Shown: piece after piece, positions 39,372-60,194 of the stretch
How positions within the stretch are numbered: position 1 is the stretch's first letter
Layout: each line of letters begins with the position of its first letter
Assembly: GCA_019670725.1 (NCBI GenBank)
Contig: AP024629.1
Span: 3,100,001-3,164,000, forward strand
Length of the DNA: 64,000 bases
Reading direction: 5' to 3'
From: Alphaproteobacteria bacterium SO-S41
Lineage (GTDB): Bacteria > Pseudomonadota > Alphaproteobacteria > Micropepsales > Micropepsaceae
Position numbers and translations under genes: made by a program
The notes under the pieces: generated by a model
Told to the model about the DNA's origin: nothing
Databases searched by the model: none
What the model saw: only the letters and a program-made list of their open reading frames with translations

Positions 39372-40280
39372 CTATATTTTCACGCGCAAGGAAGCCGTGA
39401 GAGTTCGCCACGCATACGCTGCAGCCAGGCTGCAAACCCCGTTACCGGCGCCTCTGGTGCGGTCCAGCCCATCGGCCAGCCCATCATCCAGTCGGTGAAG
39501 GCTGGGTTGTAGGTCAGGGCACGCCGTGAGAGCGCGGTCCCAGGCAGCAAACTCACCTGGACCGGGGGCGAAGAGGGGCAGCTCGCTTGTTCCTTCGAGA
39601 AGCTGGCCCCAGCCGCCTTCATGGTCAGGTAGAGCAGCGTCCAGGCATGGGCCTCCATCATCGGGCTGACCTGCGTGCTGTTCAGCCAGTCGTTGGCCTT
39701 GAAGCGCGCGCCGTCCGGCCGGATGTGCAGCGTCACATGGTTGCCCGAGGCGGACGCAGTCGGCGTGTGCCAGTATGAATAGGCGGTGCCGGATCTGGCG
39801 AGCGCCGACTTCTCGCGCTGAAAACAGGCCTGCTTTGACGCCATAACCCATGCCGCGAAGCTCCGCGGCGACGTCGGCGAATCCCAGCGTGTAGTGCCCC
39901 TCGACGTTTTCGCAGAAGACGAGCGGCGCGCCGGATTCGCGGACGATGCGGGCAACGTCCGGCCATAGGTGTCGAGGGTCGGCCGACCCCTTCCGGTTGC
40001 CCGAGAAGCTGAACGGCTGGCACGGGTAACCGGCAAGGACGAGATCCACCTTGCCGCGCCACGGGCGGCCGTCGAAGGCTCTAAGGTCATCCCAGACAGG
40101 CGCCTGCGCCAGGCTCTCGTCTGCCATCCGCGCCACGAGGGTGGCCGCGGCATGGGCTTCCCGCTCGACGAAACAAACAGTGCGATATCCCGGCTCGGCG
40201 ATGTGCAGGCCGAGGTCGAGCCCGCCGTAACCGGCGCAGAGGGAGATGCCGGCGAGGCGGCCGACGGAAGATAGAGCCAT
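39372..40280 (-). CDS. C5 cytosine DNA methyltransferase
   Basis: The 302-residue enzyme would methylate cytosine at carbon 5 in DNA. It shows motif I (SLCAGYGGLDLG), motif IV with Cys87 (GYPCQPFSFSG), motif VI (CENVEG, 123-128), motif VIII (QIRHR, 162-166) and a motif X-like end (GAGNGVCSLAAAYAWRTL). It lies just downstream of com, at the place where Mu has mom, and probably protects phage DNA from restriction. AAGGA at 40292-40296 overlaps the com stop; it is 11 nt from this ATG but 6 nt from an ATG in another frame at 40285. Confidence 0.88.
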   Translation of the reverse strand: MALSSVGRLAGISLCAGYGGLDLGLHIAEPGYRTVCFVEREAHAAATLVARMADESLAQAPVWDDLRAFDGRPWRGKVDLVLAGYPCQPFSFSGNRKGSADPRHLWPDVARIVRESGAPLVFCENVEGHYTLGFADVAAELRGMGYGVKAGLFSAREVGARQIRHRLFILAHADCVRLGQPCDAAHPAGRRALQGQRLAEQHAGQPDDGGPCLDAALPDHEGGWGQLLEGTSELPLFAPGPGEFAAWDRALTACPDLQPSLHRLDDGLADGLDRTRGAGNGVCSLAAAYAWRTLTASLRVKI

Positions 40281-40285
40281 GTCAT
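39380..40285 (-). CDS. Alternative-frame ORF with a methyltransferase-like C-terminus
   Basis: This frame runs the whole length of the methyltransferase gene, starting 5 nt earlier (ATGACATGG). Its first 165 residues look like shadow sequence (Ser/Ala/Arg-rich). Its last 130 do not: WHTPTASASG, LTYNPAFTDWMMGWPMGWTAP and FAAWLQRMRGELSRL resemble the C-terminal part of other phage cytosine methyltransferase proteins. It may be a true overlapping gene, a frameshift product, or a relic of a fusion. Expression is unknown. Confidence 0.3.
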   Translation of the reverse strand: MTWLYLPSAASPASPSAPVTAGSTSACTSPSRDIALFVSSSGKPMPRPPSWRGWQTRAWRRRLSGMTLEPSTAARGAARWISSLPVTRASRSASRATGRGRPTLDTYGRTLPASSANPARRSSSAKTSRGTTRWDSPTSPRSFAAWVMASKQACFQREKSALARSGTAYSYWHTPTASASGNHVTLHIRPDGARFKANDWLNSTQVSPMMEAHAWTLLYLTMKAAGASFSKEQASCPSSPPVQVSLLPGTALSRRALTYNPAFTDWMMGWPMGWTAPEAPVTGFAAWLQRMRGELSRLPCA

Positions 40286-40290
40286 CAGAG

Positions 40291-40304
40291 GTCCTTCACG
40301 GGAC
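40291..40304 (-). promoter_or_regulatory. Possible Com-controlled hairpin over the methyltransferase RBS
   Basis: In the minus-strand mRNA gtcc (40304-40301) can pair with ggac (40294-40291), leaving cgtgaa as loop, so that the AAGGA ribosome binding site is partly in the stem and the com TGA is in the loop. In Mu, Com melts a comparable stem at the mom start. The stem is only 4 bp, so this is a tentative reading. Confidence 0.35.
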
Positions 40305-40472
40305 GCTCCGGCTGCTCTTGGCGGCTCCGGCGTTGGGTTTTGATACGTCGACGATCCGGTCGCACCTGCGGCACTTGATCTCGACGCGGCCCACGATGGC
40401 GTTGCTTTGTTGACGGAACAATAACGCGCGGCAAAAGGGGCACCGCGCGTCCACTAAGGGACTCGACTCCAT
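40296..40472 (-). CDS. com: Mu-like Com zinc-finger translational regulator
   Basis: This 58-residue gene has two CxxC pairs: Cys11/Cys14 (RCPFC) and Cys34/Cys37 (KCRRC), the zinc knuckle of Mu Com. In Mu, Com binds the mom mRNA and opens its translation start. The next gene here is a C5 methyltransferase instead of mom, starting 10-16 nt after the com stop. Position near the right end also agrees with Mu. Confidence 0.85.
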   Translation of the reverse strand: MESSPLVDARCPFCRALLFRQQSNAIVGRVEIKCRRCDRIVDVSKPNAGAAKSSRSVP

Positions 40473-40568
40473 GAGGTTTCTCGCATCCGCTCCCTCCGCC
40501 GGTCCGGCCGGTGGCGGGATATCTGCCGGGGCGCGCCCCGGCCGGTGTGCGAGTCGTGCGCTCGCGGT

Positions 40569-40590: not shown

Positions 40591-40658
40591 GCCCCCGCCC
40601 TTAGGCGCGGGGAACAGACAAACGACCGCTTGGAAAAAGGCGGCGAGAAAGGCCCGTG

Positions 40659-41688: not shown

Positions 41689-44600
41689 CTAGCTGGGGGG
41701 ATAAACTTCGAACATGAACGTGCCGGGCAACGAAGATGGGCTCGACGCGCTCGTCGTCACGTAGGTGACGCCGGAGAAAGCGGTGATCGTGGCGTCGACG
41801 CCGGGGTGAACGCCGAAATGCTTGGAGCCGTCGTTCGCTCCGATGGCGGGCACGTTGTTGACAGCGGCTGTCCAGCCGGTGAACGCCTTGGTCGAAACAC
41901 CCGGGGTCTTTAGGGAGGCTTCAGTCGTGTGGAAGCCGATCGCCTCGGTGCGGATGAACGTGTAACTCCCACCATTCGGGCGGTAATAGAGGGCGGCCTC
42001 GCAATACCAGTCGGTCTCATAGCTGCCGCTCCCCGGGATCTCCTCGACCGATGAGACGCACTTCGCGGTGCCGCTGAAGGTGAAGACGTAGTTGCCGCCA
42101 TCGGCGTCGTCGGTCGTCGGTTTCGAGCAGCGCCAGGCTGGCGTTCCGCCGATATTCGTGCCGGCGTTCGAGGTCTGACCGGTGGGCGTGCCGGGCGTGA
42201 ATTTCTTGCAGTAGGGCGTGAAGCCGGTCGGACCTGCTGCGTCAGCCCGAACCACCCAGGTTTCGGTCCCTGAGACCGCGGGAGGGCTGTTGATCACCGG
42301 CTTGATGTACGGGACGCCGCTGCCATAGCTGCCTGTGAAAGTGACCGGTACACCATCCGACCCCGGCACAAGGTTTGGCCTCACCGCCACGCGGTGCGCG
42401 ATGGTGGCGACGGCCGAGGGGTAGACGCTCAGGTTTCGAATCATAGCGTCGTTCAGCTCGACGCGGCCGCCATTCACCATGAACGCCGGCACGTCCGACG
42501 TTCCGTCGCTGATCTTGAACACGTCGGTCAGCCAGACGACCTCCGACGTGTCGCCATCGTTCACGCTCGTCATGCCGCTGATCTTGCCGCCGACGTTCGT
42601 CTTGAAGCCCTTGATGGCGCTGGCCTTGCCGAGCGCATCGACCGCGACCGAGCCGAAATCCTCCAGATCGGCCGACATGTCGTCGAAATCGGCGGACAGG
42701 ATCGTGAACTGGCTCGCGATCGCCGCTTCCGCGTCGGAGAGCGCGGCGCTGACGGCGGTCACGCTGGCCCGCGTCGCCGTCTCGCGTACGATATCGACGG
42801 CGACCAGCACCGGCCCGCCGGTGAAGCTGGCTTTGAACCGCAGCTGCCAGACCCTGTTGGCATTGTTGGTGATGCCCGTCGGGTTCGTGACGACCCATTC
42901 GAGATCGAGCGTATCTCCGCCGGCGACGATCGCATTGGCCGAGTTGTTGACGCTCGGATCGACCGCCTGGCCGTGCTTCAGGCTGAACCAAGCGACGCCC
43001 GGTAGGTGGAGCACCGGCCAGATCGCGCCGGCGAACGACACGCCTGCATTCCAGCACCGGAAGCGGACCTTGCAGGTTTCGCCCGGATTGACGGGAAAGA
43101 AATCGGTGCTGAAATCATACGTACCGTCGCCAAACTGCAGCCCGCGGCGCTGCTCCCACCACGACGCCAGATCTGTTCCGGTCACGCCGGCCGGCAGGTT
43201 CCAGAAGGACGGGTCGCGGATTTCCGGGTCGGGCAGCAGGCTCTCGCCGCGGCCGGAGAATTTCGCCTCCAGCACCGCGCGGGCGACCGCCTCGGCGCTG
43301 TCGCCGTCGACCCGTGCCGCGTTGATCTCGGTCAGCTTGGCGCTGAGGTCCGCTTCGCCATCGCGCGCCGCCGTCAGCTCAGTCTCGATGGCGGCGAGCG
43401 CGCCGTCCTGGTCGGCGAGCGTCCCGCTATGGGTGGTCAGCGTGGCCTCGGCAATCTCGACCCGGCTATCCATCGCCTCGATCAGGCCGGCCAGCGCCGT
43501 GTCTCCGTCCTCGCGGGCGACCGCGACGGCCGTAACGCTGGCCCGCGTCGCCGTCTCGCGCACGATGTCGAAGGCGATCGCGACATAGGCGCCGGTCCAA
43601 CTGCCCTTGATGCGCAGCTGCCAACGCGCATTGGTATTGTTGGTGACGCCGCTGGGGTTCGTGACGACCCATTCGAGATCGCCGGTGTCGCTCGTCGCGA
43701 CGATCGCGTTCGCAGCGTCCGGCGCATCGTCTATGTCGATGCCTTCGCCGTGCTTCAGGCTGAACCAAGCGACGCTCGGCATGTGGATCAGCGGCTGAAC
43801 GTTGCCGGCGAAACCCGGATTCGCGACGATCCGGGCTGTGATCTTGTAGCTGGCGCCGATCGCCACCGGGAAAAAGTCGCTGCTGAAGTCGTAGGCTCCG
43901 GGCGCCAGAACGATGTAGCGCGGAAACCGCCAGCCGCTCGTATCGCCGAACGTCACGCCGGCCGGCGCGTTCCAGAACGTCGGATCGCGAAGCTGCGGGT
44001 CGGGCAACAGGCTCTCGCCGCGACCGACGATCAGATTGGCCAGCCGCGTCACCGCGGCGTCCTGGTCTGCCACGGCGTCATCGAGCGCATCGGAGAGATC
44101 GCTCACGTCGCCGGCGACATCGGCGATATCGGTGTTCAACAGAACGATATCGGCCTCGGCCGTCGCAAGTTCGGTGAGAAGCTGGGTGACGGTCTTGTCG
44201 CCGACCTTCGTACCGGTGGGCGCGCCGACCGAGCCGACCGGTACGAAGGCCGTGCCGGCGCCGTTCACCTGATACTGGATGCTGCCGTCGAGATAGATCT
44301 TCCCCGGCTGCGCGACGCCCGGTGCCGGCAGCACGCCTGAAACCACCTCGACCCGCTTCGACGCCTCGCCGTCGATCTTGGTCTGCAGCGCCTTCTCGGT
44401 CGCAAGCGCCGCTTCGAACAGGATCTGAAACGCCGCCCCGTCGATGGACGTGACACCGTCCTCATCCCAAGGGACCGGCGTCTGCATGAGGTCCAGGAAG
44501 TCGGCGAGATCATCGATCGCCAGCTCGTGGTTCGTCTTCGTGGTCGTGATGCCCAGCCCCGTCGCACGCGAACTGAGGGCGGGCTGAGCCGCCAGCAAGG

Positions 44601-47490
44601 CTTTGATGAGGGGGTTCCGGGTCTGCTTTTCGGCCGGCGAGTAAGTGTCGTCGTAGGCGGCGTCACCGCCGCCCGTGCCGAGATCGCCCGTCCATTCGAA
44701 CCACGGGCCGTCTTCGAAGCGCCCTTTGGCCTGCACGCGGACGGTGCGATCGGGGCCGGACTTCAGCAGAACGACGAGCGGCGAGACGCGGGAATCGCCC
44801 TTAGGAAGGCCATCGACTTCCACGCGATAGCCGCGCGAGGCGCTGGCGCCGACCACCGTGATCGTGACCTCGATCCAGCCGGTCGAGCCGCCCGGCGACA
44901 CATTAAGACTGTCGATCGTGAGATCTTCAGCGTCCGGCCCGTCAGGATCCGAGACCTCGGCCGGCGGATCGACCTCGTCGGCCGTGTAGACCTCGGGCGC
45001 GTCGTTGACGAGGGCGATACTAGACTTGTCCCAAGACTTCGGCCGCGCCTCGACCACCCGCATATCGAGCGCGAACTGGTCGAGCGATTTGCCGAACACG
45101 AAATGGCTGGGCAGACGCCGGCCGTTGGCGTTGTCGATCGTCAGCAGCGTCATGAGGCTCGGCGCGCCGCCGGGCAGAGGCTTGGCGATCCAGCCGCGTG
45201 CGGGGTTGCCACCTGGATCGCGGAAGATCTCGAAAGGCCCGATCGCGCGGCCGTTCGGCCGCGTGAAGGTCGCGTAATGCGCCAGATCGTCGTCGCGCCA
45301 GTCGAAGGCGATCGCGGCGGTGACGACGAAGCGGTCAGTGACCTCCTGGACAGTCTTCAGCTCCGCGACGCTGCCATAGCGCGGCACATCGTGGCTGAAG
45401 GCGATCTTGCCACCCGGAAACAGTGCCCTGCCTTCCATCTCGCTGTCGATCGAGACGAAGGTGCGGCGCTTGAGATCGGAGGTCGCCTCGTAAATGCCCT
45501 CCCTGAACGCGTGGGCGCGCTGCTGGACGCCGGGAAGCACCAGGCGCTTGGGATAGAGCCCCGGTGAACCCGTGGGCACGCAGAGCACGCTGGCGTCGAT
45601 CTTCCAGGTGCGCTCGTCGGTATAGATCACCTCGACGCAGTCCGTGCCCTGCTCGGACCCGAACAGCGTATCGAGCGCGAAGGATCCTTTGACGGTGTTG
45701 AGCGGCGTGAAGGCACTGGCATAGGCGGCGCGCGGCTCGTCACGGATGAAGCTGACGATGCCGCCCGCGATCAGCGGTCGTGCGCGGCCAGCGCGGGCGA
45801 CGACGCGCAGTTGCTCCCAGGCGGACTTCCGCTGGTCGAAGACGAAGTCGAACTTGTCGCCCCGCGATTCCCAGGTGGCGTGGAGGGTTTCCAGCGTGGC
45901 GACATCGAGCCGGCTGTCCGGCCAGTACCGCCGCACCATGTAGGCAAGGACCGGCGCGATGGCGCGCGTCGGCGCGGGAGCGGCCCAGCCACCGCCGCCG
46001 CGCCACGGCAGCCAGCGGGTCTTGATCGCATAGACCTGGTTGAGCGAATTGCCTTGGACCTGCTCGTTGGCCTTCGCACGCAGCAACAGGACCGATCGTC
46101 CGGGCCAGCCGGTCGATGGCGCGAAATATGCCTTCAGCGAGCCCCAGACCGTCTCATCGATCACTGCCGTCTTGTTCGACCGGCCGCTGGTGACGCGCCC
46201 GCGGACCTCCCAGCGATCATAGGCGTCGCTGAGCGTGCATTTGAAGCTGCAGCGGACCGGCTTGTTGATCTGCCCGCGCGTGATGTTCTCGAAGATGTAG
46301 AGGTGCCAGTCCGCCAGCGGCTCGCCCACCTCGTCGATCGGTCGCGCCCAATAGCCAACCGTGACCGTGATTGGTGCCGCGGTGCCGTCATTGTTCGCCC
46401 AGCCGAGGCCGCGCGGGAAAAGCACGTCGACGCCGAAGCCGATCGCCTTGGTGCCGGCGGCGTTGAGGACGTAGCCGCCGAGCCAGTTGTCATCGTCCGG
46501 CCCATCGGCCGCGACCATGACTGCGCCGCTGACCTCCGGGCTCGCTTTGACGACGTCGGTGAACAGCGTTGGCACGTCGCCGGGATGCACGATCTGGTAC
46601 TGGACGCTGTCGTAAGCGGGGTTTCGAACGCCGTCGCGGACCAGATAGGTGTCCGCGAAGCCGAATTCTTCCCAGGTGAATTTGCCGATACCGGCCGACA
46701 GCGTCTTGTGAACGACGGGATCGTCGTTCTCGTATTCGATGTAGTCCTCGGCCGCGCTGTCGAGCACATGGCGCGTGCAGCCCACCGCCTCCGGCACGGC
46801 CTGGCCGAGGCGCGGGAAATTGCCGCTGCCCGAGATCGAATAGGTCGGGCTCGCCTGTTCCGCATTGCCGAGCTGCGCCTTGGGCGCCGGCATCAGCGCA
46901 TTGACAGCCATGTTGAGGCCGGCCGCGACGACGGCGGTGGAGACCGCGAGCGCGGTTTCGGCGCTTGTGAAAAGCGCCATGCCCTCAGGACCAAGCGCCA
47001 ACGCCAGCTCGGGTGCAACGATCGCCGTCACAACGAGAATGGCGATCGCCGCGAGGATCCGCAGCGCCTGGCTGTTCTTGCCGCCCTGCGGCAACGCCAT
47101 CGCCAGCAGCACGTCGCCATCACGGACCCGTGTCGCTGCCCAATCCGCGCGCGCCACCGGGATCAGGTTGAGCGTGACGAGGATCGGCATGCCGAGATGC
47201 AGATCCGTCGCGTCGAGCGCCGCGGCGATCGTGTCGCCGCTATTGATGACGCGTCGCTCGGCCACCATCTCGGCCGACCAAACCGCTCCGGTCCAGACCA
47301 TATAGGCCTTGCCGTCCGTCGTCGGCGCACCGCCGATGCTGTCGATCGGCACCAGTGAAGTGCCGTCGTACCAATCCCTTGTCGCGGCATTGCGCCTCAG
47401 CATGGCGTTCAGCGCGAACTCGATCTCTTCGTCGGTTGCCTTTCGGGCGGGCGACATGGTGTCGTCCGCATAAGGGATCAGGGCGCTCAT
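41689..47490 (-). CDS. Phage tail-tip/host-specificity protein J
   Basis: The start at 47490 (ATG overlapping the previous stop) gives 1933 residues; the frame is open further but out of the known gene order. A hydrophobic stretch occurs at about 140-190 (ILAAIAILVVTAIVAPELALAL). The centre matches lambda-J-like tip proteins. Two tandem modules of about 255 residues each begin GRGESLLPDP (near nucleotides 44030 and 43256), each a beta domain plus coiled coil. The C-terminal region has ALGKASAIKGFKTNVGGKIS, as in the DUF1983-type end of J. It determines receptor binding. Confidence 0.88.
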   Translation of the reverse strand: MSALIPYADDTMSPARKATDEEIEFALNAMLRRNAATRDWYDGTSLVPIDSIGGAPTTDGKAYMVWTGAVWSAEMVAERRVINSGDTIAAALDATDLHLGMPILVTLNLIPVARADWAATRVRDGDVLLAMALPQGGKNSQALRILAAIAILVVTAIVAPELALALGPEGMALFTSAETALAVSTAVVAAGLNMAVNALMPAPKAQLGNAEQASPTYSISGSGNFPRLGQAVPEAVGCTRHVLDSAAEDYIEYENDDPVVHKTLSAGIGKFTWEEFGFADTYLVRDGVRNPAYDSVQYQIVHPGDVPTLFTDVVKASPEVSGAVMVAADGPDDDNWLGGYVLNAAGTKAIGFGVDVLFPRGLGWANNDGTAAPITVTVGYWARPIDEVGEPLADWHLYIFENITRGQINKPVRCSFKCTLSDAYDRWEVRGRVTSGRSNKTAVIDETVWGSLKAYFAPSTGWPGRSVLLLRAKANEQVQGNSLNQVYAIKTRWLPWRGGGGWAAPAPTRAIAPVLAYMVRRYWPDSRLDVATLETLHATWESRGDKFDFVFDQRKSAWEQLRVVARAGRARPLIAGGIVSFIRDEPRAAYASAFTPLNTVKGSFALDTLFGSEQGTDCVEVIYTDERTWKIDASVLCVPTGSPGLYPKRLVLPGVQQRAHAFREGIYEATSDLKRRTFVSIDSEMEGRALFPGGKIAFSHDVPRYGSVAELKTVQEVTDRFVVTAAIAFDWRDDDLAHYATFTRPNGRAIGPFEIFRDPGGNPARGWIAKPLPGGAPSLMTLLTIDNANGRRLPSHFVFGKSLDQFALDMRVVEARPKSWDKSSIALVNDAPEVYTADEVDPPAEVSDPDGPDAEDLTIDSLNVSPGGSTGWIEVTITVVGASASRGYRVEVDGLPKGDSRVSPLVVLLKSGPDRTVRVQAKGRFEDGPWFEWTGDLGTGGGDAAYDDTYSPAEKQTRNPLIKALLAAQPALSSRATGLGITTTKTNHELAIDDLADFLDLMQTPVPWDEDGVTSIDGAAFQILFEAALATEKALQTKIDGEASKRVEVVSGVLPAPGVAQPGKIYLDGSIQYQVNGAGTAFVPVGSVGAPTGTKVGDKTVTQLLTELATAEADIVLLNTDIADVAGDVSDLSDALDDAVADQDAAVTRLANLIVGRGESLLPDPQLRDPTFWNAPAGVTFGDTSGWRFPRYIVLAPGAYDFSSDFFPVAIGASYKITARIVANPGFAGNVQPLIHMPSVAWFSLKHGEGIDIDDAPDAANAIVATSDTGDLEWVVTNPSGVTNNTNARWQLRIKGSWTGAYVAIAFDIVRETATRASVTAVAVAREDGDTALAGLIEAMDSRVEIAEATLTTHSGTLADQDGALAAIETELTAARDGEADLSAKLTEINAARVDGDSAEAVARAVLEAKFSGRGESLLPDPEIRDPSFWNLPAGVTGTDLASWWEQRRGLQFGDGTYDFSTDFFPVNPGETCKVRFRCWNAGVSFAGAIWPVLHLPGVAWFSLKHGQAVDPSVNNSANAIVAGGDTLDLEWVVTNPTGITNNANRVWQLRFKASFTGGPVLVAVDIVRETATRASVTAVSAALSDAEAAIASQFTILSADFDDMSADLEDFGSVAVDALGKASAIKGFKTNVGGKISGMTSVNDGDTSEVVWLTDVFKISDGTSDVPAFMVNGGRVELNDAMIRNLSVYPSAVATIAHRVAVRPNLVPGSDGVPVTFTGSYGSGVPYIKPVINSPPAVSGTETWVVRADAAGPTGFTPYCKKFTPGTPTGQTSNAGTNIGGTPAWRCSKPTTDDADGGNYVFTFSGTAKCVSSVEEIPGSGSYETDWYCEAALYYRPNGGSYTFIRTEAIGFHTTEASLKTPGVSTKAFTGWTAAVNNVPAIGANDGSKHFGVHPGVDATITAFSGVTYVTTSASSPSSLPGTFMFEVYPPS

Positions 47491-47987
47491 GCCGCCGCCT
47501 CGGCGGCCATCGCCCCACCGCTGGGCGGCTGGTAGACGAGCCAACGCAAGCGTTGGAAGCCCATGACGCGCAGTTCCAGCAGACTCGACGTGATGACGCC
47601 ATTGCCCTCGATGGCGTGCGCGACGATTCCGCCGTCGAGCATGAGGCCGAGACCGACATGATGCGGCAGGTTCGATCGGCCCATGAGGCAGATCGCGAGA
47701 TGGCTCAACCGGTCGCCGGCACGCCAATCTTTCCGGATCGTCCGGCGCGCCAGCGTCGCGACCAGCTCGTGAATGGGCGCGGTCGGCAGGTCGAGCCCGG
47801 CGAGTTCCTTCAGGCCGTGCCGCACCAGGCCCCAGCAGCCGAACTCGTACGGGCCTTCTGCGCCATCGACCCAGGGCCGGCCGATCAGGCCATTCACCCA
47901 GCGCGCCGCGGCCGAGCGCTCCCATGCGCCCGGCTCGATCGTGTATGGGATGTCAGCGCTGTGCGAGGCCACGATAGTCCTCGACAC
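47487..47987 (-). CDS. Phage tail NlpC/P60-like peptidase
   Basis: The 166-residue protein has a cysteine peptidase layout: Cys51 in FGCWGLVRHGL, His110 in PHHVGLGLM and His124 in IVAHAIEG. It would cut peptidoglycan during DNA injection, like lambda K. It overlaps DUF1833 by 35 bp if the ATG at 47987 is used; a GTG at 47972 is possible. It is followed at once by the J gene. Confidence 0.85.
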   Translation of the reverse strand: MSRTIVASHSADIPYTIEPGAWERSAAARWVNGLIGRPWVDGAEGPYEFGCWGLVRHGLKELAGLDLPTAPIHELVATLARRTIRKDWRAGDRLSHLAICLMGRSNLPHHVGLGLMLDGGIVAHAIEGNGVITSSLLELRVMGFQRLRWLVYQPPSGGAMAAEAAA

Positions 47988-48507
47988 GGTAGGTCTCGCT
48001 GGGGAATGCGGCGTTCAGCATGTCGAAAAAGCCGAGCCGCGCCGTGGCGCGCAGGACCGTCGCCCGTGCCCGCTTGGCGCTGAAGCCGTCGATGATGAAC
48101 TCGGGGCCGAAAAAACGGCGCGACGGCAGGAACTCGCGATAGGTGACGAAGATCGGATCGTTGGTGTCGCCGGCGCGCTTGAACTGCGGCATCAGCTCGG
48201 CCGACGCGTTATCGATGCCGATCTCGGCTTCGGGCACGCCGGTGTCCGAATGCTCGGGCAGCTTCACGTCGATCGGCACGCCGCGAAATTCGACCAGGTC
48301 GCCCGGATCGGCCGGCGCATCGGCGTTGAGTTTCAAATCCCAGTCGCGATTGTCGAGCACCAGGCGCACCGCGGTCAGCGGCTCGCCTTCCTCGTCCAGG
48401 AAGGCAGGATGGCGCAGCTCCAGCGTGCCGAGCACCGGCTCCTTGGTCGGGGCCGACGCGTAGGCTTCGAGGATGGCCTCGGAGAATAGATCGTCGAGCG
48501 TGCTCAC
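47953..48507 (-). CDS. DUF1833-family phage tail protein
   Basis: GTG at 48507 overlaps the upstream stop by 4 bp and gives 184 residues. The block RLVLDNRDWDLKLNADAPADPGDLVEFRGVPIDVKLPE fits DUF1833 minor tail proteins, which precede the NlpC and J genes in related phages. It probably belongs to the distal tail. Confidence 0.82.
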   Translation of the reverse strand: MSTLDDLFSEAILEAYASAPTKEPVLGTLELRHPAFLDEEGEPLTAVRLVLDNRDWDLKLNADAPADPGDLVEFRGVPIDVKLPEHSDTGVPEAEIGIDNASAELMPQFKRAGDTNDPIFVTYREFLPSRRFFGPEFIIDGFSAKRARATVLRATARLGFFDMLNAAFPSETYRVEDYRGLAQR

Positions 48508-48926
48508 GGGATCGCCCCTGCCCAGCGCGCGTTCACCTCGGCCTTTGTGAGGACCTTCAGATCTTCGACTTCCAGATTGACGGCGACCGTCCACGTCACG
48601 CCCCGCAGCGTCGCGTCGTAGGGCGAGACGAAGCGGCAGGCGGCGGCGGCATAGCCCTCGCCGTAATAGATCGGCGCGTCGAACCAGTTGGCGCCCTGGT
48701 CGAGCGCATCGGGATCGGCATAGATCGCCTTGAAGAGTTCGAACTGGCCCAGCGAAAGCGGCAACGCGGCGGGATAAGGCCAGAGGCCGTCAGTCCAGCG
48801 CCGCCGCACGCGCGCCTTGGGCGCTTCCATATCCGTGCGGGCCAGCACGTTGGGCGGCGTGATCTTGAGCGCCGACTTCAACGACCAGGGCGGCAGGTAG
48901 GCGGTGGGCCACTGAAAGTTCGCCAT
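48504..48926 (-). CDS. Minor tail protein of unknown family
   Basis: The 140-residue protein has many aromatic residues (FQWPTAYLPPW, RRRWTDGLWPYPAALPLS) and no recognised domain. It starts at the stop of the tape measure gene and overlaps the DUF1833 gene by 4 bp, so it is a distal tail component by position. Confidence 0.75.
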   Translation of the reverse strand: MANFQWPTAYLPPWSLKSALKITPPNVLARTDMEAPKARVRRRWTDGLWPYPAALPLSLGQFELFKAIYADPDALDQGANWFDAPIYYGEGYAAAACRFVSPYDATLRGVTWTVAVNLEVEDLKVLTKAEVNARWAGAIP

Positions 48927-51310
48927 CAGTTGACCGCCCGCTGCGCGTTGAACGCGGTCTGCAAGACCTGGTTGAGTGGGCCGACGCCCTTGGCGACATT
49001 CCCGGCCATGCGGGTTTCCGCTTCGTCGAAGATCGCGTCGAGATTGAGCCCGCCATCCGCGCCCTGGCTCTGCTCAATCCGATCGCCCTTGCCGTCCTTC
49101 ACCAGGCGGACGGTGAGGTTGATCGGGATGCCGGCCATCTGCCACATGCCGCCTGCGCCGCGAGCCATGTCGATGACACTGGAGGATCCAGCGCCGCCCG
49201 TGACGAAGCCGCCTTCGGCATAGCCCTTCAGCGAGCGGTGAAGCCGGTCGAGATTGCCGACGCCGGCGGCGCGCGTGGCCGGCGCGCTGAAGACATATTC
49301 GTTGCCGTGAACGAGGCCGACAGCCGTGCTCGGATGGGCCGGGCCGGTCCAGCCACCGGTGTCGAAGCCGCGGTTGAAAAACCAGTCTCCCGGCGACTTG
49401 AAAGCGCTGCCTGCAATGTCCAGCAGCCACGACGCGCCCTTGTCGAACCCCGGCTGCACGAGGCGCTGCCAACTCATTTTCGCCAGCGTGTCCAGGAAGG
49501 CGCTCAGCAGCTCGTCCAGGCTTGTCTTCCCGGTCGTTACCAACCGCCGCCAGGCGTCCTCGCCGGCCGATGACATGCTCCTGAGGCCGTCCTCGGAGGT
49601 GCGCGCGAAGTCCAAGGAGTCGCGCCGTAGATCCATCAGCCCGCGCTTGAGGCCGGACGCCCAGTCGGTGCGGCGGCGCAGATCCTCCTCGTAGGCGTCG
49701 GCGACCATGCCATTGAAGATCTGATCGATGTCGGCGGCGAACTCGGCATGGCCTTTGCCGGTCGCGTCGAGGGCGGCGATGCTGGCATCGCGCCACTGCT
49801 CCGCCTTTGCGATGCCGCGTTCATAGACCGGCAGCATGTCGGTCAGCCGCTTCTGGATATCCTCGGCCGCGCGCGCCCGTTCGCGCTCCGCCTGCTTGGC
49901 AACACGCTCGGCTTCGCGTTTCGCCCGGTCGGCCTCGCGCTGCGCCGTTGCCGCGGCTTCACGATCGCCGCGGGTGATCGAGTCCTTCAGCTCCTTCTGC
50001 TCGCGCAACAGGCCGTTAAGCGCCGCCTCGGCGCGGGTCCGGTCTTCGCCCGTCACGCCCTTGTCGGCGAGCACACCGCGCACCAGCCCCATCTCATCGG
50101 AGAGCTGCGACATGCGCGTTTCGCGCGGATTGACGCGCCGGTCGATGTCGCCGATCTGCAAGTTCAGGGCTTCGCGTCGGTTGGCGACGCCGGAGAGCAG
50201 GCTCGCCGTGCCTTGCGCGCCGGCCAGCATCGAGATGGCCCAGCCGTCGTTCAGCTGCGAGGCCTGCTTGACGAAACTCGACAAGCCCTCGGGCATCTGG
50301 CCGAGCGCATCCCAGACATTGCTGACGGCGTTGCCGATGCCCTCGATCGCCCAGGCGACGGTGCTTGCTTCCTTCGCGGTGTCGGCGAAGCGCGCATTGA
50401 TGCCTTCCATCAACGTCTGCTGCGCTTCCCACATCTGGCCCGAGCGTTCCATCTGCTCGATCTGGCGGGCTTCGCTCTCGGTGAAGACGCCATAGCTGCG
50501 TGCCAGCTCGCGCGCCGCCTTGCTGGGCGACGCCATCGCCTCCGCCAGCTTCTCCAAGGCGGTCGCGGTATCGGTGCCCGTCGCGATCCCGAAGCCGCGG
50601 GCGGCGCCGGCCGCGAGCTTCATGGCCTCGGTCGACTGACTGCCGGCATTGATCAGCGCGGCGGCCATCGTGCGCCCCTCGCGCGATGAGACGCCGGCAA
50701 GGCTGCTGATGTCGTCCGCAAGATCCCGTGCCGCCTGGCGGCTGATCCCGAGGGTGCGGTTATGCACGTCGGCCGCGACGTCCACTTCGCGGATCGAGGC
50801 CGCATAGGATTCGTGCGCCGCGACGGCGGTCAGCACTGTCGCCGCCGTGGCGCCCAGGGCGAGCCGCCAGGCGCCGATCGTCCCGACCAAACCCTGCAGC
50901 GCCGCCTTGGGGCTTTCGAAGGCCTGTGCGAGCTGGGGGCCTTGCTGCATGGCGATCATCCAGGCCGGCGTCCCCGACGCCGCCGAGGCGAAGACATCGC
51001 TCACCGTGTAGGTGACCGCCTGCGACTGCATCCGCGCCTTGTTGCGCGCTGACCTCTCAGCGGCCTGCTCGGTCCGCTGGATCTCGCGCTGGGCGGCGCG
51101 TTGCTCGCGCGCCAGTTCGGCTGCTGCCTTCGCGGCCTCCCGCTGCTCCTTCGTCAGCTTCTCCGTCCCGGATGCCGCGGGCGCGGCGGCGGACGCGACG
51201 CCCTGTTCCGCGACCTTGACCTGGTCGAGCGCCGCGGCGGCCTCTTTCGAGGCGGCCACCAGCTGCTTCGCTTCCAGCTCGATCCGGCCGCTGACGGTGA
51301 AGTTCGTCAC
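48926..51310 (-). CDS. Phage tail tape measure protein
   Basis: The 794-residue protein sets tail length. The N-terminus is a long coiled coil (about 12-105). It is followed by SAASGTPAWMIAMQQGPQLAQAF and a hydrophobic segment (LALGATAATVLTAVAAHE), typical of the TMP_2 type. A second coiled coil lies at about 440-520. The C-terminal part has WTGPAHPSTAVGLVHGNEYVFSAPA, a common tape measure ending. It overlaps the chaperone gene stop by 4 bp. Confidence 0.92.
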   Translation of the reverse strand: MTNFTVSGRIELEAKQLVAASKEAAAALDQVKVAEQGVASAAAPAASGTEKLTKEQREAAKAAAELAREQRAAQREIQRTEQAAERSARNKARMQSQAVTYTVSDVFASAASGTPAWMIAMQQGPQLAQAFESPKAALQGLVGTIGAWRLALGATAATVLTAVAAHESYAASIREVDVAADVHNRTLGISRQAARDLADDISSLAGVSSREGRTMAAALINAGSQSTEAMKLAAGAARGFGIATGTDTATALEKLAEAMASPSKAARELARSYGVFTESEARQIEQMERSGQMWEAQQTLMEGINARFADTAKEASTVAWAIEGIGNAVSNVWDALGQMPEGLSSFVKQASQLNDGWAISMLAGAQGTASLLSGVANRREALNLQIGDIDRRVNPRETRMSQLSDEMGLVRGVLADKGVTGEDRTRAEAALNGLLREQKELKDSITRGDREAAATAQREADRAKREAERVAKQAERERARAAEDIQKRLTDMLPVYERGIAKAEQWRDASIAALDATGKGHAEFAADIDQIFNGMVADAYEEDLRRRTDWASGLKRGLMDLRRDSLDFARTSEDGLRSMSSAGEDAWRRLVTTGKTSLDELLSAFLDTLAKMSWQRLVQPGFDKGASWLLDIAGSAFKSPGDWFFNRGFDTGGWTGPAHPSTAVGLVHGNEYVFSAPATRAAGVGNLDRLHRSLKGYAEGGFVTGGAGSSSVIDMARGAGGMWQMAGIPINLTVRLVKDGKGDRIEQSQGADGGLNLDAIFDEAETRMAGNVAKGVGPLNQVLQTAFNAQRAVN

Positions 51311-51702
51311 AGCCGTACCGCCTGGGCCATCGCGTGCGCCGCTTCAGCCTCGATTGTCTGCAGCTGGTCGAGCAGATCCGCGTCGAGCGTCAGGCCGAGC
51401 GCGCCGGCAACGACGGGCAACACGGCATAGTCCAGCGCGGTCCGCATCAGGATCGCGCCCTTCGGGTGCGGGAGGACGGCGACGCGCCATTGCGTGCCGG
51501 CAGCGAGGAACAGCCGGACGGCGTCCTCGTTTTCGGCCAGCACTTCGATTGCGTCGTCGTCATCGCTCTCCGCCGTTTCCGCGGTGGCGCCAAGGCGCGC
51601 CGCAGCCTCTGGCGACAGGCCCATGGCCGCCGCCTGCTCCTCGATCGTCTCGGTTGGTCCAGCGTCGCGCGGTTGAGCCCAGGCGCGCGCGACGTCGATC
51701 AG
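51307..51702 (-). CDS. Tail assembly chaperone, -1 frameshift extension (GT-like)
   Basis: This frame has no good start of its own. After slippage on the A AAA AAC heptamer, translation re-reads C51702 as the first base of CTG and continues LIDVARAWAQ for 131 residues to 51307. The acidic stretch SDDDDAIEV lies in the middle. Gene order (tube, chaperone, tape measure) and the overlap design are as for lambda G/GT. Confidence 0.8.
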   Translation of the reverse strand: MIDVARAWAQPRDAGPTETIEEQAAAMGLSPEAAARLGATAETAESDDDDAIEVLAENEDAVRLFLAAGTQWRVAVLPHPKGAILMRTALDYAVLPVVAGALGLTLDADLLDQLQTIEAEAAHAMAQAVRL

Positions 51703-52043
51703 TTTTTTCGGGGTGCCCGGCCGAGGAAGTCGAAATAGGCGCGCGTGAAGCCGTCGCCGACATAGGGGACGCCCGAGATCTCGGCGAAGCGTTCGAACGG
51801 CACGGGCTGGACCGCCTCGTCGGTGCACTCCCAATCGACGACGACATGGGCGAGCAGCGCGGCCTGTCCGATCTTGAGCAGCTCGGAGATCTTCTCGTCC
51901 GTCGCCACGACGAAGCGAGCGCGCAGCGTCTGCGGCTCGACGGTGCCGGCGCCGTCGCTGGCGCTGTTGAGCGGCACGTCGATCGTCACCGGCCACCACA
52001 CGGCCTGGGGCTTCGACAGATCTGGGAAAACGAATTTCGTCAT
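51699..52043 (-). CDS. Tail assembly chaperone (G-like)
   Basis: The 114-residue protein lies between the tail tube and tape measure genes. It begins MTKFVFPDLSKPQAVWWPVTIDV and ends GRAPRKN. The last codons form a slippery heptamer directly before the TGA. By position and design it is the G-type tail chaperone; sequence family is not recognised. Confidence 0.8.
   Translation of the reverse strand: MTKFVFPDLSKPQAVWWPVTIDVPLNSASDGAGTVEPQTLRARFVVATDEKISELLKIGQAALLAHVVVDWECTDEAVQPVPFERFAEISGVPYVGDGFTRAYFDFLGRAPRKN
51702..51708 (-). promoter_or_regulatory. Slippery heptamer A AAA AAC for -1 frameshifting
   Basis: The minus-strand sequence cga aaa aac tga carries A AAA AAC in the reading frame of the chaperone gene, directly followed by its stop. 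A -1 slip enters the open frame of the extension. This is a canonical -1 frameshift site. Confidence 0.8.
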
Positions 52044-52051
52044 GAGGGGCC

Positions 52052-52975
52052 TCAGGTGAACAGGATCGAGATGTCGGGGCCGGACGGATTGCGCCGGGTG
52101 GCGAGGTTGGCCTGCACCAGGCGCAGCTGTCCGTCCGCCGCATAGGTCGGGCTTTCGACCTGCGTCTTGGCGAGCGCGACCGACGCCGAACGTCCGACCG
52201 CCACGGTGTGCGTCAGCGCAACGGCGCGCAGGTTCGGCACGGCCGCGTCGGTGAACAGGTTGGCGCTCGCAAGCGCCGCCTGGTGCACGGAGAGCTGGCC
52301 GCCCGGCGTGCGATCGTCGATGTCAACGCCGGCGTAATTCGGCTTGTCGCGGAACACGACCTGGTTGCCGAGCTGCAGCGTGAGCTGGTGAAGGACGAGC
52401 TGCACGGCGTTGTAGGTGAAGGCCGTCGCCGCCTTGCTGACCGTCACGGGCGCCAGCATGTCAGGGAACGTCGGATCCGGCAGCGCCGTATCGGTCGGCG
52501 TCGCGTAGAGGCCAGTGAACTCGAACTGCAGCTGCGGAAGCTGACCGGGCTGGCATTGCAGCGTGACGGTGCCGCGCGCGCCGGTGAGGACATGCTTCGT
52601 TCCGCCAGCCCATGTGTAGAAGGTGACGCTGTCGATGCTTTCGCTGACCTCGGTGTACTCGACGCTCGTGTCGGCGGTCACCGTCTCGGCGAAGCCGCAC
52701 GCCCGCAGCGCTGCGGCAATATCGGGCGCCGTGCCGGCCGTGGCGGCCGGGCGGAAATCCCAGGAGAAGCTCACGCGCGCACGGCGCTGGCCGGGAAAAC
52801 TCGCATCCTTCGAGAAATCGCCAAGCGCATAGTCCGGCGCGACGGAATCCATCTCCAGCGGCACGATCGTGAGGCCGCTCACCTTGGCGGCGTTCAACGA
52901 CGCGGTCGGCGTCGGATCGGTGCCGTAGCTCGACTCCCGCTTCATCAGCAGGAGCTGCTTCTTCATGCTGCTCAT
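52052..52975 (-). CDS. Phage tail tube (major tail) protein
   Basis: The 307-residue protein begins with KKQLLLMKRESSYGTDPTPTAS, the usual start of tail tube proteins of this phage group, followed by VSFSWDFRPAATAGTAPDIAAALRACGF. No tail-sheath gene accompanies it, so the tail is flexible. The start overlaps the preceding small gene by 4 bp; Met4 (52966) is an alternative start. Confidence 0.85.
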   Translation of the reverse strand: MSSMKKQLLLMKRESSYGTDPTPTASLNAAKVSGLTIVPLEMDSVAPDYALGDFSKDASFPGQRRARVSFSWDFRPAATAGTAPDIAAALRACGFAETVTADTSVEYTEVSESIDSVTFYTWAGGTKHVLTGARGTVTLQCQPGQLPQLQFEFTGLYATPTDTALPDPTFPDMLAPVTVSKAATAFTYNAVQLVLHQLTLQLGNQVVFRDKPNYAGVDIDDRTPGGQLSVHQAALASANLFTDAAVPNLRAVALTHTVAVGRSASVALAKTQVESPTYAADGQLRLVQANLATRRNPSGPDISILFT

Positions 52976-53142
52976 TTCGAGGTCTCCTTGACCGGGGCCG
53001 GCGCCGTTGGCTCTTCGACCTGGCTGAGGCTGCCATCGGCGTTACGCATGAAGCTGCCGCCCGTCTTGGGCCGCGGGCGCGGCGCGGCCTCGGCCGGCGC
53101 GGCGGGGGGAAGGTCGGTGTCGGTCGTTTTGGCCTTGGCCAT
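52972..53142 (-). CDS. Small DUF2635-like phage protein
   Basis: The 56-residue protein has a Pro/Ala-rich middle (LPPAAPAEAAPRPRPKTGGSF) and charged ends. Its place between the gp37-like gene and the tail tube gene corresponds to the small gp38/DUF2635 gene of Mu-like phages. Sequence alone is not diagnostic. Confidence 0.6.
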   Translation of the reverse strand: MAKAKTTDTDLPPAAPAEAAPRPRPKTGGSFMRNADGSLSQVEEPTAPAPVKETSK

Positions 53143-53143
53143 G

Positions 53144-53572
53144 TCAGCCCTCAATGATGCGAGTGAAGGCGAAGGACTGCTGCCACCACAGCGTGCCCTT
53201 CGTGAAGTCGTAGGAGAGGAGCCGGCCGCCGCGATATTCGACGGGCTCGTTGGTGAGCGGGTGCTTCCAGCCGAGCAGCGCATCGCGCGTTTTCTCGCGG
53301 ACCTGGTCGAGGATGGCCGGCGTACCTTTCAGCGTCGCGAGCAGAAAGCCGGTGACGACATCGAAGCGTTCTTCACCCTGCTGGCGCGTGACCATGGTTG
53401 CTGAGCTGAGCCGCCCGGCTGTATCGCCGGTGGGAACGACGAACTGCATGGGACTGGTCGCTAGCTGCGCGTTGAGCGCGGCGATGCCGGCGACGGCTTC
53501 GACGGCGAGCGCGCCGGTCTCGGACTTCGCGGCGACGAGCTGCGCGACGATGGGAGCGACGATGCCCGTCAC
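53144..53572 (-). CDS. gp37-like tail terminator protein
   Basis: GTG at 53572 overlaps the upstream stop by 4 bp and gives 142 residues. It contains VTRQQGEERFDVVTGFLLATL and EPVEYRGGRLLSYDFTKGTLWWQQSFAF, as in the gp37/tail completion proteins of Mu-like siphophages. It follows the virion morphogenesis protein in the usual order. Confidence 0.75.
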   Translation of the reverse strand: MTGIVAPIVAQLVAAKSETGALAVEAVAGIAALNAQLATSPMQFVVPTGDTAGRLSSATMVTRQQGEERFDVVTGFLLATLKGTPAILDQVREKTRDALLGWKHPLTNEPVEYRGGRLLSYDFTKGTLWWQQSFAFTRIIEG

Positions 53573-54087
53573 GGCGCACCGCCTGCAGCGCCCGCGGCGC
53601 GCTGTTCGATAAAGTCCGCGGCGAGCATGACCACAGCCGCGCTGTCCTGGTCCGTGAAGCCGACCATCGGGCGTGCCGGCAGGATGACCTCGCCAGCGAA
53701 GACCAGAGCCCCATGACTGCCCACGAAGGCGAGCGCCTTGGCGTTCTTCGGCCGGATGACGGCGCCGAAATGCAACGGCGCCGCATACGAGACGTTGGTG
53801 CCCCACTCGACGCTGACGGCATCGGCGCGGCTGTCGAAGGACTGTTTCAGGCGGCCGGTGCGCGTCAGCGTCTGCCCGCCTTCATCGCGGGCGCGCCAGC
53901 TCGGCATCCAGGGCGTGCCGTCCGGCTCCGTCTCGGTCTCGAAGCGCTCGACGGTCGAGCCGACCAGGTAGACGCCGATCGCCTCCATGAGAGGCGTCAG
54001 ATCCTCGCCAAGCGCCACCAGCTCGCCAAGCATCGCCTGCGCGTCGGGGATCCCGGTGAGACCGATATGGACGGCGAGGCCGTTCAT
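53569..54087 (-). CDS. Phage virion morphogenesis protein (Mu gpG/P2 S-like)
   Basis: The 172-residue protein has GVYLVGSTVERFETETEPDGTPWMP and TLTRTGRLKQSFDSRADAVSVEWGTNVSYAAPLHFGAVI, the standard marks of the virion morphogenesis family (PF05069). It acts in tail completion. It overlaps DUF1320 by 4 bp. Confidence 0.9.
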   Translation of the reverse strand: MNGLAVHIGLTGIPDAQAMLGELVALGEDLTPLMEAIGVYLVGSTVERFETETEPDGTPWMPSWRARDEGGQTLTRTGRLKQSFDSRADAVSVEWGTNVSYAAPLHFGAVIRPKNAKALAFVGSHGALVFAGEVILPARPMVGFTDQDSAAVVMLAADFIEQRAAGAAGGAP

Positions 54088-54512
54088 GCGAAGCCGCTCA
54101 GACCGCGCGCGTCGAAGACGGGACAGTCGCGCTCGAAGCTGGGGGCGCTGCCAGGCGCACTCGCGCCAGCCGCAGCTGCGGCAGCGCCGGGCAGCACGAC
54201 GGTGCCATCGGCGATGCGTTTCAGGTCGCTGAGGGCATCTTCAAAGCCCTTGCGCACATGCTCGGGCGCGCCGTCTTCCCAGAGGTAGTAGCGCGCGATC
54301 GCCGTGGCGATCTGATTGACCAGGGGCGGCACCGGCGCGAGCGGCGCGGCATAGCGGGCGCTGACATAGCCGTCGATCTTGGCGTCGGCATCGGTCAGGG
54401 CGCGCTCGATGACGGTGTCGTCGATCGTGGTGGCCGCGGCCTTGTCCGTGAGGCGCGCCAGCTCCGTCTCGCCGAAGCGGTCGATCAGGTTCTGCTTGGT
54501 CGCGTAGGTCAC
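54084..54512 (-). CDS. DUF1320-family protein (Mu gp36-like)
   Basis: The 142-residue protein begins YATKQNLIDRFGETELARLTDKA, and has ALTDADAKIDGYVSARYAAPLAPVP, both typical of DUF1320 head-tail connectors in Mu-like phages. The C-terminal 40 residues are Ala/Gly-rich. A terminator-like hairpin lies just upstream. Confidence 0.92.
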   Translation of the reverse strand: MTYATKQNLIDRFGETELARLTDKAAATTIDDTVIERALTDADAKIDGYVSARYAAPLAPVPPLVNQIATAIARYYLWEDGAPEHVRKGFEDALSDLKRIADGTVVLPGAAAAAAGASAPGSAPSFERDCPVFDARGLSGFA

Positions 54513-54536
54513 GGGTGAGGTACGTCCGGAGAAAAG

Positions 54537-54569
54537 AGGGGCGGTGCAGCACGAGTCCGCACCGCCCCT
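54537..54569 (-). terminator. Terminator-like hairpin between the capsid block and DUF1320
   Basis: Arms aggggcggtgc (54537-54547) and gcaccgcccct (54559-54569) form a perfect 11-bp stem. Read on the minus strand it is followed by ctttt, a short T-tract. It may reduce transcription from head into tail genes. Confidence 0.6.
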
Positions 54570-54593
54570 TCAGTTGGGGAGGAAACTCGTCGG

Positions 54594-54794
54594 TTAGGCG
54601 GCGGGCGCCTCGGCCGCCTTGCCCTTGGCGGGCTCGATCACCTTGGCTTCGAGCAGCGCGCCAGCGGCCTCGTCGCTCAGTTCGATGGTGTCCGCGCCCT
54701 TGAGACCGGGGCCGTAGGCCTTGCCGTCATGGCGCAGATTGTCGATCACGCGATACTTGGAGCCCTTGGGCGCCGTTTCGTCTTTCGCAGCCAT
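54594..54794 (-). CDS. Small phage protein downstream of capsid (gp35-like position)
   Basis: The 66-residue protein (KYRVIDNLRHDGKAYGPG, IELSDEAAGALLEAKVIEP) resembles small proteins that follow the major capsid gene in Mu-like phages; function unknown. It is 64 bp downstream of the capsid gene and ends Lys/Ala-rich. Confidence 0.7.
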   Translation of the reverse strand: MAAKDETAPKGSKYRVIDNLRHDGKAYGPGLKGADTIELSDEAAGALLEAKVIEPAKGKAAEAPAA

Positions 54795-54858
54795 TCACGT
54801 CTCCATATCGACGCCGGCGGCGTCGATCATGCTTCGGGATTGAGGGAGAACGCGGCGG

Positions 54859-55794
54859 TTAGGCCGTCGCGTTCTGGATGTAGTAGCCGCAGTCGCCGGA
54901 GACGATCAGCTCCTTCAGGGACTCGCCGACGCGGACGCGCTGGCCACCGCGCAGGCCGATATCTCCATCGGGTGTCGCGCCGGCGATCTTGGTCTTGTAG
55001 GGGACCGTGATGCCGAAGGTGACGCCGTGATCGTTGTCGGCGAGCGGGTCCTGATAGAGGAACGCGGCGTGCTTGCCCCAGGTGCGCGACATGGTGACCG
55101 CCTGGCCGCGCTTCGCCGTGTTGACATAGGCGTTGCCGACGATGACCTCTTCCAGCTCGAAGATCTCGGCGAAGGCTTCCTTGGTCACTAGGCCGGTATC
55201 GCCACTCGTCTTATTCGCGGCCTTCACGATCTTCGGGTGCTTGCGCACGGCCGACCAGGTGAGCTGACCGAAGACCGCCTTACGCGGCCGCATCAGCGGC
55301 GTGTTAATCGCGGCTTCGATCGTGGCGATCGGATCGCTGGTGACGTCGCTCCACTGATCCGAGCCCGAGAGGGTGACGCGGTTAGTGGAGGGATAGCTGG
55401 CGGTATTGAACACGAGGCCGGCCGTACGCACTTCACGGCCCAGCTCGATCAGGCTGGAGTGGAAGGTGACGGACTTATCGACCGGCGATTTCGCGCCCTG
55501 CGAAGCGGCCTGGTCGATGTCGTCCTGAGGAATCGGATCGTCGAGACCGTGATCTTCGACCTCGGCCGTCTGGCGGGTCTCCTCGTAGCTCAGCTGGCGC
55601 GGCGTACCGCGGCGGCCGACGCGATCATCGGGCAGCGTGTAGAGCGTGCCGATCGGATATTGGTTCCAGGCGAAGGTGCGCTTCGAAACCGGCGTCACCC
55701 GCGGCAGAACGCGGTCGGCGATCAGCTCGGGGTTGCGAAACGCGATCGCGATGGCCGTCAGCGCCGGGTCGATCGGAAAGGGAGTGGAAGTCAT
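54859..55794 (-). CDS. Prophage major capsid protein
   Basis: ATG 55794 gives 311 residues. The protein has IADRVLPRVTPVSKRTFAWNQY, GLDDPIPQDDIDQA and GLRGGQRVRVGESLKELIVSGDCGYYIQNA, as in capsid proteins of RcapMu/B3-like transposable phages, and lies downstream of protease and cement genes. It is unrelated in sequence to the GTA capsid at 35498. Confidence 0.85.
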   Translation of the reverse strand: MTSTPFPIDPALTAIAIAFRNPELIADRVLPRVTPVSKRTFAWNQYPIGTLYTLPDDRVGRRGTPRQLSYEETRQTAEVEDHGLDDPIPQDDIDQAASQGAKSPVDKSVTFHSSLIELGREVRTAGLVFNTASYPSTNRVTLSGSDQWSDVTSDPIATIEAAINTPLMRPRKAVFGQLTWSAVRKHPKIVKAANKTSGDTGLVTKEAFAEIFELEEVIVGNAYVNTAKRGQAVTMSRTWGKHAAFLYQDPLADNDHGVTFGITVPYKTKIAGATPDGDIGLRGGQRVRVGESLKELIVSGDCGYYIQNATA

Positions 55795-55819
55795 CGGTGT
55801 TCCTGCTTTCGAGCCGGGC

Positions 55820-56200
55820 TTAGACCGGCGTGGTGACCTGGCTGGGGAAGATGAATGCGGGGCCGATATCGCCATCGGCGGCGGTGAAGAGGGCCTTGCC
55901 GATCGACTGCCCCTTCGCGCCGGCAGCCGGCGAGCAGACCACGGCCTTGCCGTTGGCATCCGCCGTGATGAAGGAGCCGCGCGGCACGGCGCCGCCGTAC
56001 TCGACGTCGGTCTCGCCGAACATCACGACATCGCGCGGCGCGCCGCTGTCGCTGTCCAGCTCGGTCGAAACGCCGATCAAAAGATCAGCCGTTGCCGAGG
56101 CCTGTACGACAGCGCCATCAGCCGAGCCGAACTTGAGGATGCGGCGCTTCGCGACGGCGGCGCCGCCGAGGTAGGTGCGGATAACCCGGTGTTCGCTCAC
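55820..56200 (-). CDS. DUF2190-type capsid cement protein
   Basis: The 126-residue protein has AVVQASATADLLIGVSTELD, YGGAVPRGSFITADANGKAV and the final IFPSQVT, all typical of DUF2190 head decoration proteins. Its start overlaps the protease gene by 4 bp. Confidence 0.85.
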   Translation of the reverse strand: MSEHRVIRTYLGGAAVAKRRILKFGSADGAVVQASATADLLIGVSTELDSDSGAPRDVVMFGETDVEYGGAVPRGSFITADANGKAVVCSPAAGAKGQSIGKALFTAADGDIGPAFIFPSQVTTPV

Positions 56201-57303: not shown

Positions 57304-57339
57304 GACCGCGACCTAAAGGGATCGCGAAGCCCGCCGCGC

Positions 57340-57357
57340 CCCTGAACGCGTTCAGGG
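57340..57357. promoter_or_regulatory. 18-bp perfect palindrome, possible operator of the cargo genes
   Basis: ccctgaacgcgttcaggg is a perfect inverted repeat without a spacer, located 54 bp before the plus-strand gene at 57411 and 37 bp upstream of the protease start. Uninterrupted palindromes of this kind are common repressor sites. Confidence 0.45.
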
Positions 57358-57382
57358 CCGCTAATTCTCTCCGCACCCCCCA

Positions 57383-57403
57383 CGCTCGCTCTGCGAGCGA
57401 GCG
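57383..57403. terminator. Hairpin between the protease gene and the cargo genes
   Basis: Nine-bp arms cgctcgctc / gagcgagcg close a 3-nt loop (tgc). No T-tract follows on either strand. Confidence 0.45.
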
Positions 57404-57410
57404 GAAAACA

Positions 57411-57692: not shown

Positions 57693-57720
57693 AAATGCTC
57701 TTGGCCGGGGCTACATCGAA

Positions 57721-58566: not shown

Positions 58567-58659
58567 AACCTCCATTCCGCACGCGCGGTGGCCGTCCCAG
58601 CGTCGGGATCATAAGGCACCGCGTCGGGCCCGGCCGGGCGCTCGGCCTGGCCTAGCGGA

Positions 58660-60024: not shown

Positions 60025-60194
60025 TTAGGCCCCCGATCGAGCCGAGGCGGGGAATGCGACCCTCGGCGCTGCCTTCAGACCCCGCTTAAGGGCGAATAAG
60101 GGCTCTAAGGGCGGGGTGAACGCCATTTCAGGCCCCGTTGCAGCCGGACGGGGGGCAAAAGCGGCGTGCGGGCAAAAATCCGGAGCGGGGTCCA

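Follow-up and report, generated by a model that had tools for sequence, protein, structure and literature searches.

What might explain why, in an alphaproteobacterial prophage, a gene resembling com of phage Mu is followed by a C5 cytosine DNA methyltransferase gene rather than by mom, and could the methyltransferase be under the type of translational control that Com exerts in Mu? The window, by which we mean the whole analyzed stretch of 64,000 nucleotides from Alphaproteobacteria bacterium SO-S41, carries the two genes in tandem on the minus strand, com at 40296..40472 (-) and the methyltransferase gene at 39372..40280 (-), with the start of the second 15 nt after the stop codon of the first. 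The original prediction had recognized a 58-residue CxxC...CxxC protein in the position of Com and a C5 methyltransferase in the position of Mom, and both identifications were borne out. The 58-aa product of the com ORF (40472-40296(-)) is a CCCC zinc ribbon with a CPFC...CRRC four-cysteine pattern; it matches PHROG 6417 'translational regulator' (E 2e-5) and PHROG 13819 'gpCom' (E 4e-4), and aligns with the Coms of its relatives at loci L006 and L072 and with other alphaproteobacterial Coms. Taken alone, the window Com falls below the reporting level of the Pfam family PF10122 (Zn_ribbon_Com), and a tblastn search with it against named phages gave no match; the alphaproteobacterial Com consensus matches PF10122 above the cut-off (E 2.5e-13), and hhalign aligns the alphaproteobacterial and Mu-type Com profiles with a probability of 98.4% (E 7e-15). 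A solved Com structure was looked for and none was found. The 302-aa methyltransferase matches PF00145 (E 3e-28) and PHROG 363, a family of phage C5 methyltransferases, and possesses the motifs LCAGYGGLDLG, GYPCQPFS (with the catalytic PCQ), ENVEG and GNGV. Its identity with other C5 methyltransferases linked to Com is 53-60%, and it keeps all of the invariant motifs, and judged by its sequence the gene is intact. The Mom model PF25680 finds no match in this gene, whereas it does match at loci L017 and L159.

PHROG and Pfam matches place com and the methyltransferase gene as the last genes of the late region of a Mu-type transposable prophage (41689..63945 (-) by PHROG matches), that is, at its right end, where Mu has com-mom. 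The pair is assigned to this end because a Mu-type morphogenetic series lies upstream and because MuA/MuB-type genes and a CI-like repressor are found beyond the window. The late-region genes encode a terminase, a portal protein (PHROG 113), a minor head protein, a protease (PHROG 976), a Mu T-type capsid protein (PHROG 1005), and neck, tape measure and tail fibre J proteins (PHROG matches), and beyond the window there are terminase subunits, a MuA-type transposase (DDE_2, E 1e-45), a MuB-type protein (MuB_C) and the repressor. The early region of the same prophage encodes a ParB-like protein and a second putative DNA methyltransferase (PHROG 359; 6821-7435 (-) of locus L249, near 3166820-3167434 of G000:C1). 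Between the tail-fibre region and com, on the opposite strand, is a 250-aa ORF (40656-41408 (+)) that matches no Pfam family and looks like an inserted cargo gene. The approximately 100 bp upstream of com (40480-40600) are strongly conserved with L006 and L072 and contain the palindrome CCGGGGCGCGCCCCGG (40526..40541), in the block common to these closest relatives, and a CCGCCACCGG...CCGGCGG inverted repeat; this block may be where com has its late promoter. Adjoining the right end of the prophage is an ORF for a trypsin-like peptidase (38407-39309 (+); PF13365, E 9e-10), and next to the Mu-type prophage, but separate from it, is a second, HK97-type set of head genes (34900-38450 (-)) with a prohead protease at 38028-37537 and a capsid gene at 36733-35498, which may be part of a second prophage or of a cluster resembling a gene transfer agent.

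The control element originally proposed for this junction was a small stem covering the methyltransferase ribosome binding site, with the com stop codon in its loop, and such a stem is present in the window. Its core is formed by GTCC (40304-40301) and GGAC (40294-40291) around the loop CGTGAA, which contains the com stop codon TGA (40298-40296), and the GGA of the putative ribosome binding site AAGGA (40292..40296 (-)) sits in the 3' arm. With one bulged C the stem extends to 9 bp (CGGAG.GTCC / GGACCTCTG, 40286..40310 (-)) with a folding energy of -12.1 kcal/mol. That this stem is itself the switch is, in spite of its length and energy, quite unlikely: its stability is not above chance (z -1.1, with 24/200 shuffles folding equally well), and across 48 homologous junctions it is not conserved, 29% of cells being paired, no better than in controls. 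Absence of the stem from homologous phages had been named in advance as the observation that would count against it, and we reject the GTCC/GGAC stem as a conserved switch.

The element that is conserved is a different hairpin, inside the 3' end of com and upstream of the GTCC/GGAC stem, with a C(N)2-4GA loop closed by a C-G pair. Profile searches retrieved 64 genome loci and 80 viral-contig loci with Com, the two collections overlapping in part and the named hosts being mostly Alphaproteobacteria; the retrieval pattern favored Coms with the residues EIKCRRC, and near-identical loci remain in some of the counts. Com is rare, occurring in 3/100 relatives and in 7/385 genomes of the class. Each locus was searched from the zinc finger to the enzyme start for a C-G-closed C(N)2-4GA loop on a stem with 3 or more base pairs. 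This hairpin is found in 122/127 unique Com loci, compared with 12.2 expected from dinucleotide shuffles, and in 40/43 loci after redundancy reduction, and it occurs with every class of downstream enzyme; when 64 loop types were tested, the runner-up reached 13 loci. Most alphaproteobacterial coms encode an LRPxEP or LRPxxSP C-terminus as UGAGGCC-N4-GAGCC or UGAGGCC-N3-GAGCC, which can form GGC-C(N)3-4GA-GCC, and GAGCC is therefore kept in two reading frames. The arginine codon of the motif is AGG in 105/106 coms, compared with 6.4% for the genes downstream and 2% for the zinc-finger arginine of the same coms. Together, the AGG codon bias and the retention of GAGCC in two frames represent a constraint at the RNA level. 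A second hairpin approximately 20 nt further downstream covaries, its outer pair being CG in 17 cases, UA in 9, AU in 8, GC in 2, GU or UG in 6 and unpaired in 7. RNAalifold over the whole junction recovered only the 3-bp core of hairpin 1.

A control set was assembled from the enzyme side, by fetching C5 methyltransferases with their own sequence and without use of Com, and it comprised 60 loci with an anchored start. The hairpin was found in 9/10 genes with Com upstream and in 0/50 without it; eight members of the Com group were recognized by the script pattern, and two whose Coms the pattern had missed (L167 and L168) by eye, of which L167 has the hairpin and L168 has a longer loop that was not counted as one.

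Is the conserved element an RNA operator, or might it be a DNA site? Zinc ribbons can bind DNA, and the arms of the stem form a dyad, so that alphaproteobacterial Com could be imagined as a DNA-binding transcription regulator with the inverted repeat as its site. The CNNNGA loop, however, is asymmetric, always lies on the coding strand, and is located within the com mRNA, ahead of the start of the enzyme gene, and Mu Com binds RNA hairpins of just this form (PMC6483171); we regard a DNA-binding role as highly improbable. In Mu mom RNA the Com site, published as the 19-mer GAAUGCCUGCGAGCAUCCC, is a hairpin with the loop CUGCGA closed by C-G, the SELEX consensus for Com is CC(N)2-3GAG, and RNA binding with translational activation is known for the Coms of Mu and H. 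sputorum (PMC6483171). The loop rule of the conserved hairpin is thus the same as that of the Com site in Mu mom mRNA.

The window itself is one of the few Com loci without a canonical hairpin. At the position homologous to GGC-CAGCGA-GCC of L006 and GGC-CATTGA-GCC of L072 it has a degenerate operator-like hairpin, GCCGC-CAAGA-GCAGC (40311..40325 (-)), with 4 bp, one C.A mismatch, and a C(N)2GA loop (CAAGA) closed by C-G; considered alone this hairpin is not significant, 7% of shuffles being as good. Since it is degenerate, control by Com may be weaker, altered or decaying, and the window could be viewed as a divergent member of the group in which control may have been weakened. A stronger form of this argument is that the window copy is uncontrolled or decaying, a recent swap having put the C5 methyltransferase behind com, with the operator degenerating and translation proceeding without Com. 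The non-canonical hairpin would fit such a history, as would the fact that com ends before the methyltransferase start, and in the com tree the window Com groups at 99% support with L072 and L006, both of which have a D12 methyltransferase and a canonical hairpin (further members of this clade were looked for, and only L006/L008 and L072 were found). Yet the CC(N)2GAG core is kept at the homologous position as CCAAGAG, which conforms to the SELEX consensus, both gene products are intact, and the hairpin over the ribosome binding site starts directly behind the operator-like hairpin, in a layout similar to that of Mu. On this evidence an uncontrolled copy is possible but rather unlikely, and we favor a Com-activated pair with a divergent operator. 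In a test of the inhibitory half of the Mu mechanism, upstream pairing that would occlude the start codon (GUGGC) did not exceed shuffles in the C5 class (p 0.08); pairing of the ribosome binding site region in this class is borderline (p 0.048 vs shuffles). Between the first hairpin and the start of the methyltransferase gene, GAGCC:GGCUC is a candidate inhibition stem that pairs in 91% of cells, without covariation.

The original prediction had suggested that the Com switch was recruited for another DNA modification, and this part of it is supported more widely than was proposed, the hairpin type being shared by C5, N4/N6, D12, ABC-GNAT and Mom loci, while the stem offered as the switch element did not hold. 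We classified the gene after Com in 149 loci, duplicate contigs included, with a Pfam check on representatives. A C5 methyltransferase follows in 62/149; the other loci have a TDPPYSSGG-type N6/N4 methyltransferase (25/149), a second class of N6/N4 enzyme (10/149), a D12/Dam adenine methyltransferase (21/149), a fusion of an ABC-type ATPase with a GNAT domain (20/149), Mom (4/149), or an unclassified or truncated gene (7/149). The combination of Com with a C5 methyltransferase is a frequent variant and not a one-off recruitment, and at least six kinds of putative DNA-modifying enzyme are exchanged behind Com and its hairpin. The ABC-GNAT fusion is found in L003 (3308-4956), L031, L045, L054, L057 and others, and in 14/18 readable loci a formyltransferase-like ORF comes next (PF00551 in L003); the pair is a candidate for an uncharacterized phage DNA modification system.

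Locus pairs with com DNA 92-99% identical have nevertheless different enzymes downstream, and the enzymes behind Com and the hairpin are exchanged as cassettes. In these pairs the identity stops 64-75 nt past the EIKC codons, approximately 10-20 nt behind hairpin 1, which itself ends at +52 or +53 from the same codons. One swap pair is found within a single genome, that of Rhizobium sp. FKY42 (L041 with C5, L045 with ABC-GNAT); L017 (Mom) and L089 (N4/N6) are 96-100% identical for 700 bp upstream, and L107 (D12) and L136 (C5), and L039 (D12) and L042 (C5), form further pairs. Mapped onto the com tree, which has few columns, enzyme class requires at least 39 changes; for C5, at least 7 are unavoidable even when only well-supported branches are counted. 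All of the strong swap pairs break just behind the conserved stretch, which would be expected if that stretch were a homology seam, a recombination site for downstream exchange and no RNA operator at all. Against this, the stems covary and vary with lineage (for Mu AUGC/GCAU, for Moraxella phage Mcat1 AGUC/GACU, for B3 GCGC/GCGC, for KS5 AGGC/GCCU, and also GGC/GCC), and yet the unpaired positions keep the form C(N)GA; this loop, moreover, is the same as the Com site that was mapped biochemically in Mu (PMC6483171). A seam in place of an operator is very unlikely; the stretch may be a seam in addition to being an operator.

The observations made here are the gene pair and its homology, the conserved hairpin, and the exchanges of enzymes. 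From these we consider the locus, with a probability of about 0.7, to be a com-(modification gene) module, belonging to a Mu-type transposable phage, in which a C5 methyltransferase has replaced mom and is activated through Com and the hairpin. Com would be made late from the same mRNA as the downstream enzyme, would bind the hairpin with the C(N)2-4GA loop that lies toward the 3' end of the com coding sequence, and would thereby activate translation of the gene behind com; binding and activation are ascribed to it by analogy with Mu. Late methylation of phage DNA could then allow escape from host restriction, protection being the presumed outcome. Com and the hairpin would constitute the fixed control module, and the enzyme behind them would be the part exchanged between phages. 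It is probable, if less so than the reading of the locus itself, that Com with the C(N)2-4GA hairpin serves Mu-like and related phages generally as a portable module for translational control, with swapped enzymes that include C5 methyltransferases and the ABC-GNAT and formyltransferase pair, which may make a new DNA base modification. If so, Com-mom changes from the curiosity of a single phage to a general rule, in which one short RNA hairpin, readable from sequence, marks phage DNA-modifying genes that are to be kept off until late. It would also provide a route to new phage DNA modifications, with the ABC-GNAT-formyltransferase cassette as a candidate, and the natural swap pairs are test material for the tolerance of a translational activator toward different downstream genes.

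How does this arrangement compare with known systems? Drozdz et al. (2012) reportedly described N6-adenine methyltransferases at the mom position in the FluMu, Pnme1 and H. influenzae biotype aegyptius prophages; mom is reportedly replaced there by another DNA methyltransferase, as in the window, but one that makes m6A and is non-specific, rather than C5. The presence of Com beside other methylases is already known from the annotations of Pseudomonas phage B3, where a Dam methylase adjoins Com, and Burkholderia phage KS5, where an N4/N6 methylase does (PMC3091744); both have the C(N)GA loop, as does Escherichia phage Chuche, with Com, an unspecified DNA methyltransferase and a stem of only 2 bp. 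Unlike in the window, the enzymes of these three phages are adenine, N4/N6 or unspecified ones, annotated as neighbors of Com without description of an operator. In the part of the literature covered by an open-access library, we found no report of Com with a C5 methyltransferase, of a shared operator, or of swapping. The phage C5 methyltransferases of PHROG 363 belong to the same enzyme superfamily as the window enzyme, and among the 60 relatives the hairpin is confined to Com-preceded genes. With Mu com-mom the window shares the zinc-ribbon Com, the right-end position in a transposable phage, a modification gene directly downstream, and a C-G-closed C(N)3GA-loop hairpin type in the 3' end of com. 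It differs in that the Mu enzyme, Mom, has an acyltransferase fold whereas the window has a C5 methyltransferase, in that the Mu inhibition stem, which includes the start codon, is not seen as a conserved feature, and in that the operator of the window is degenerate.
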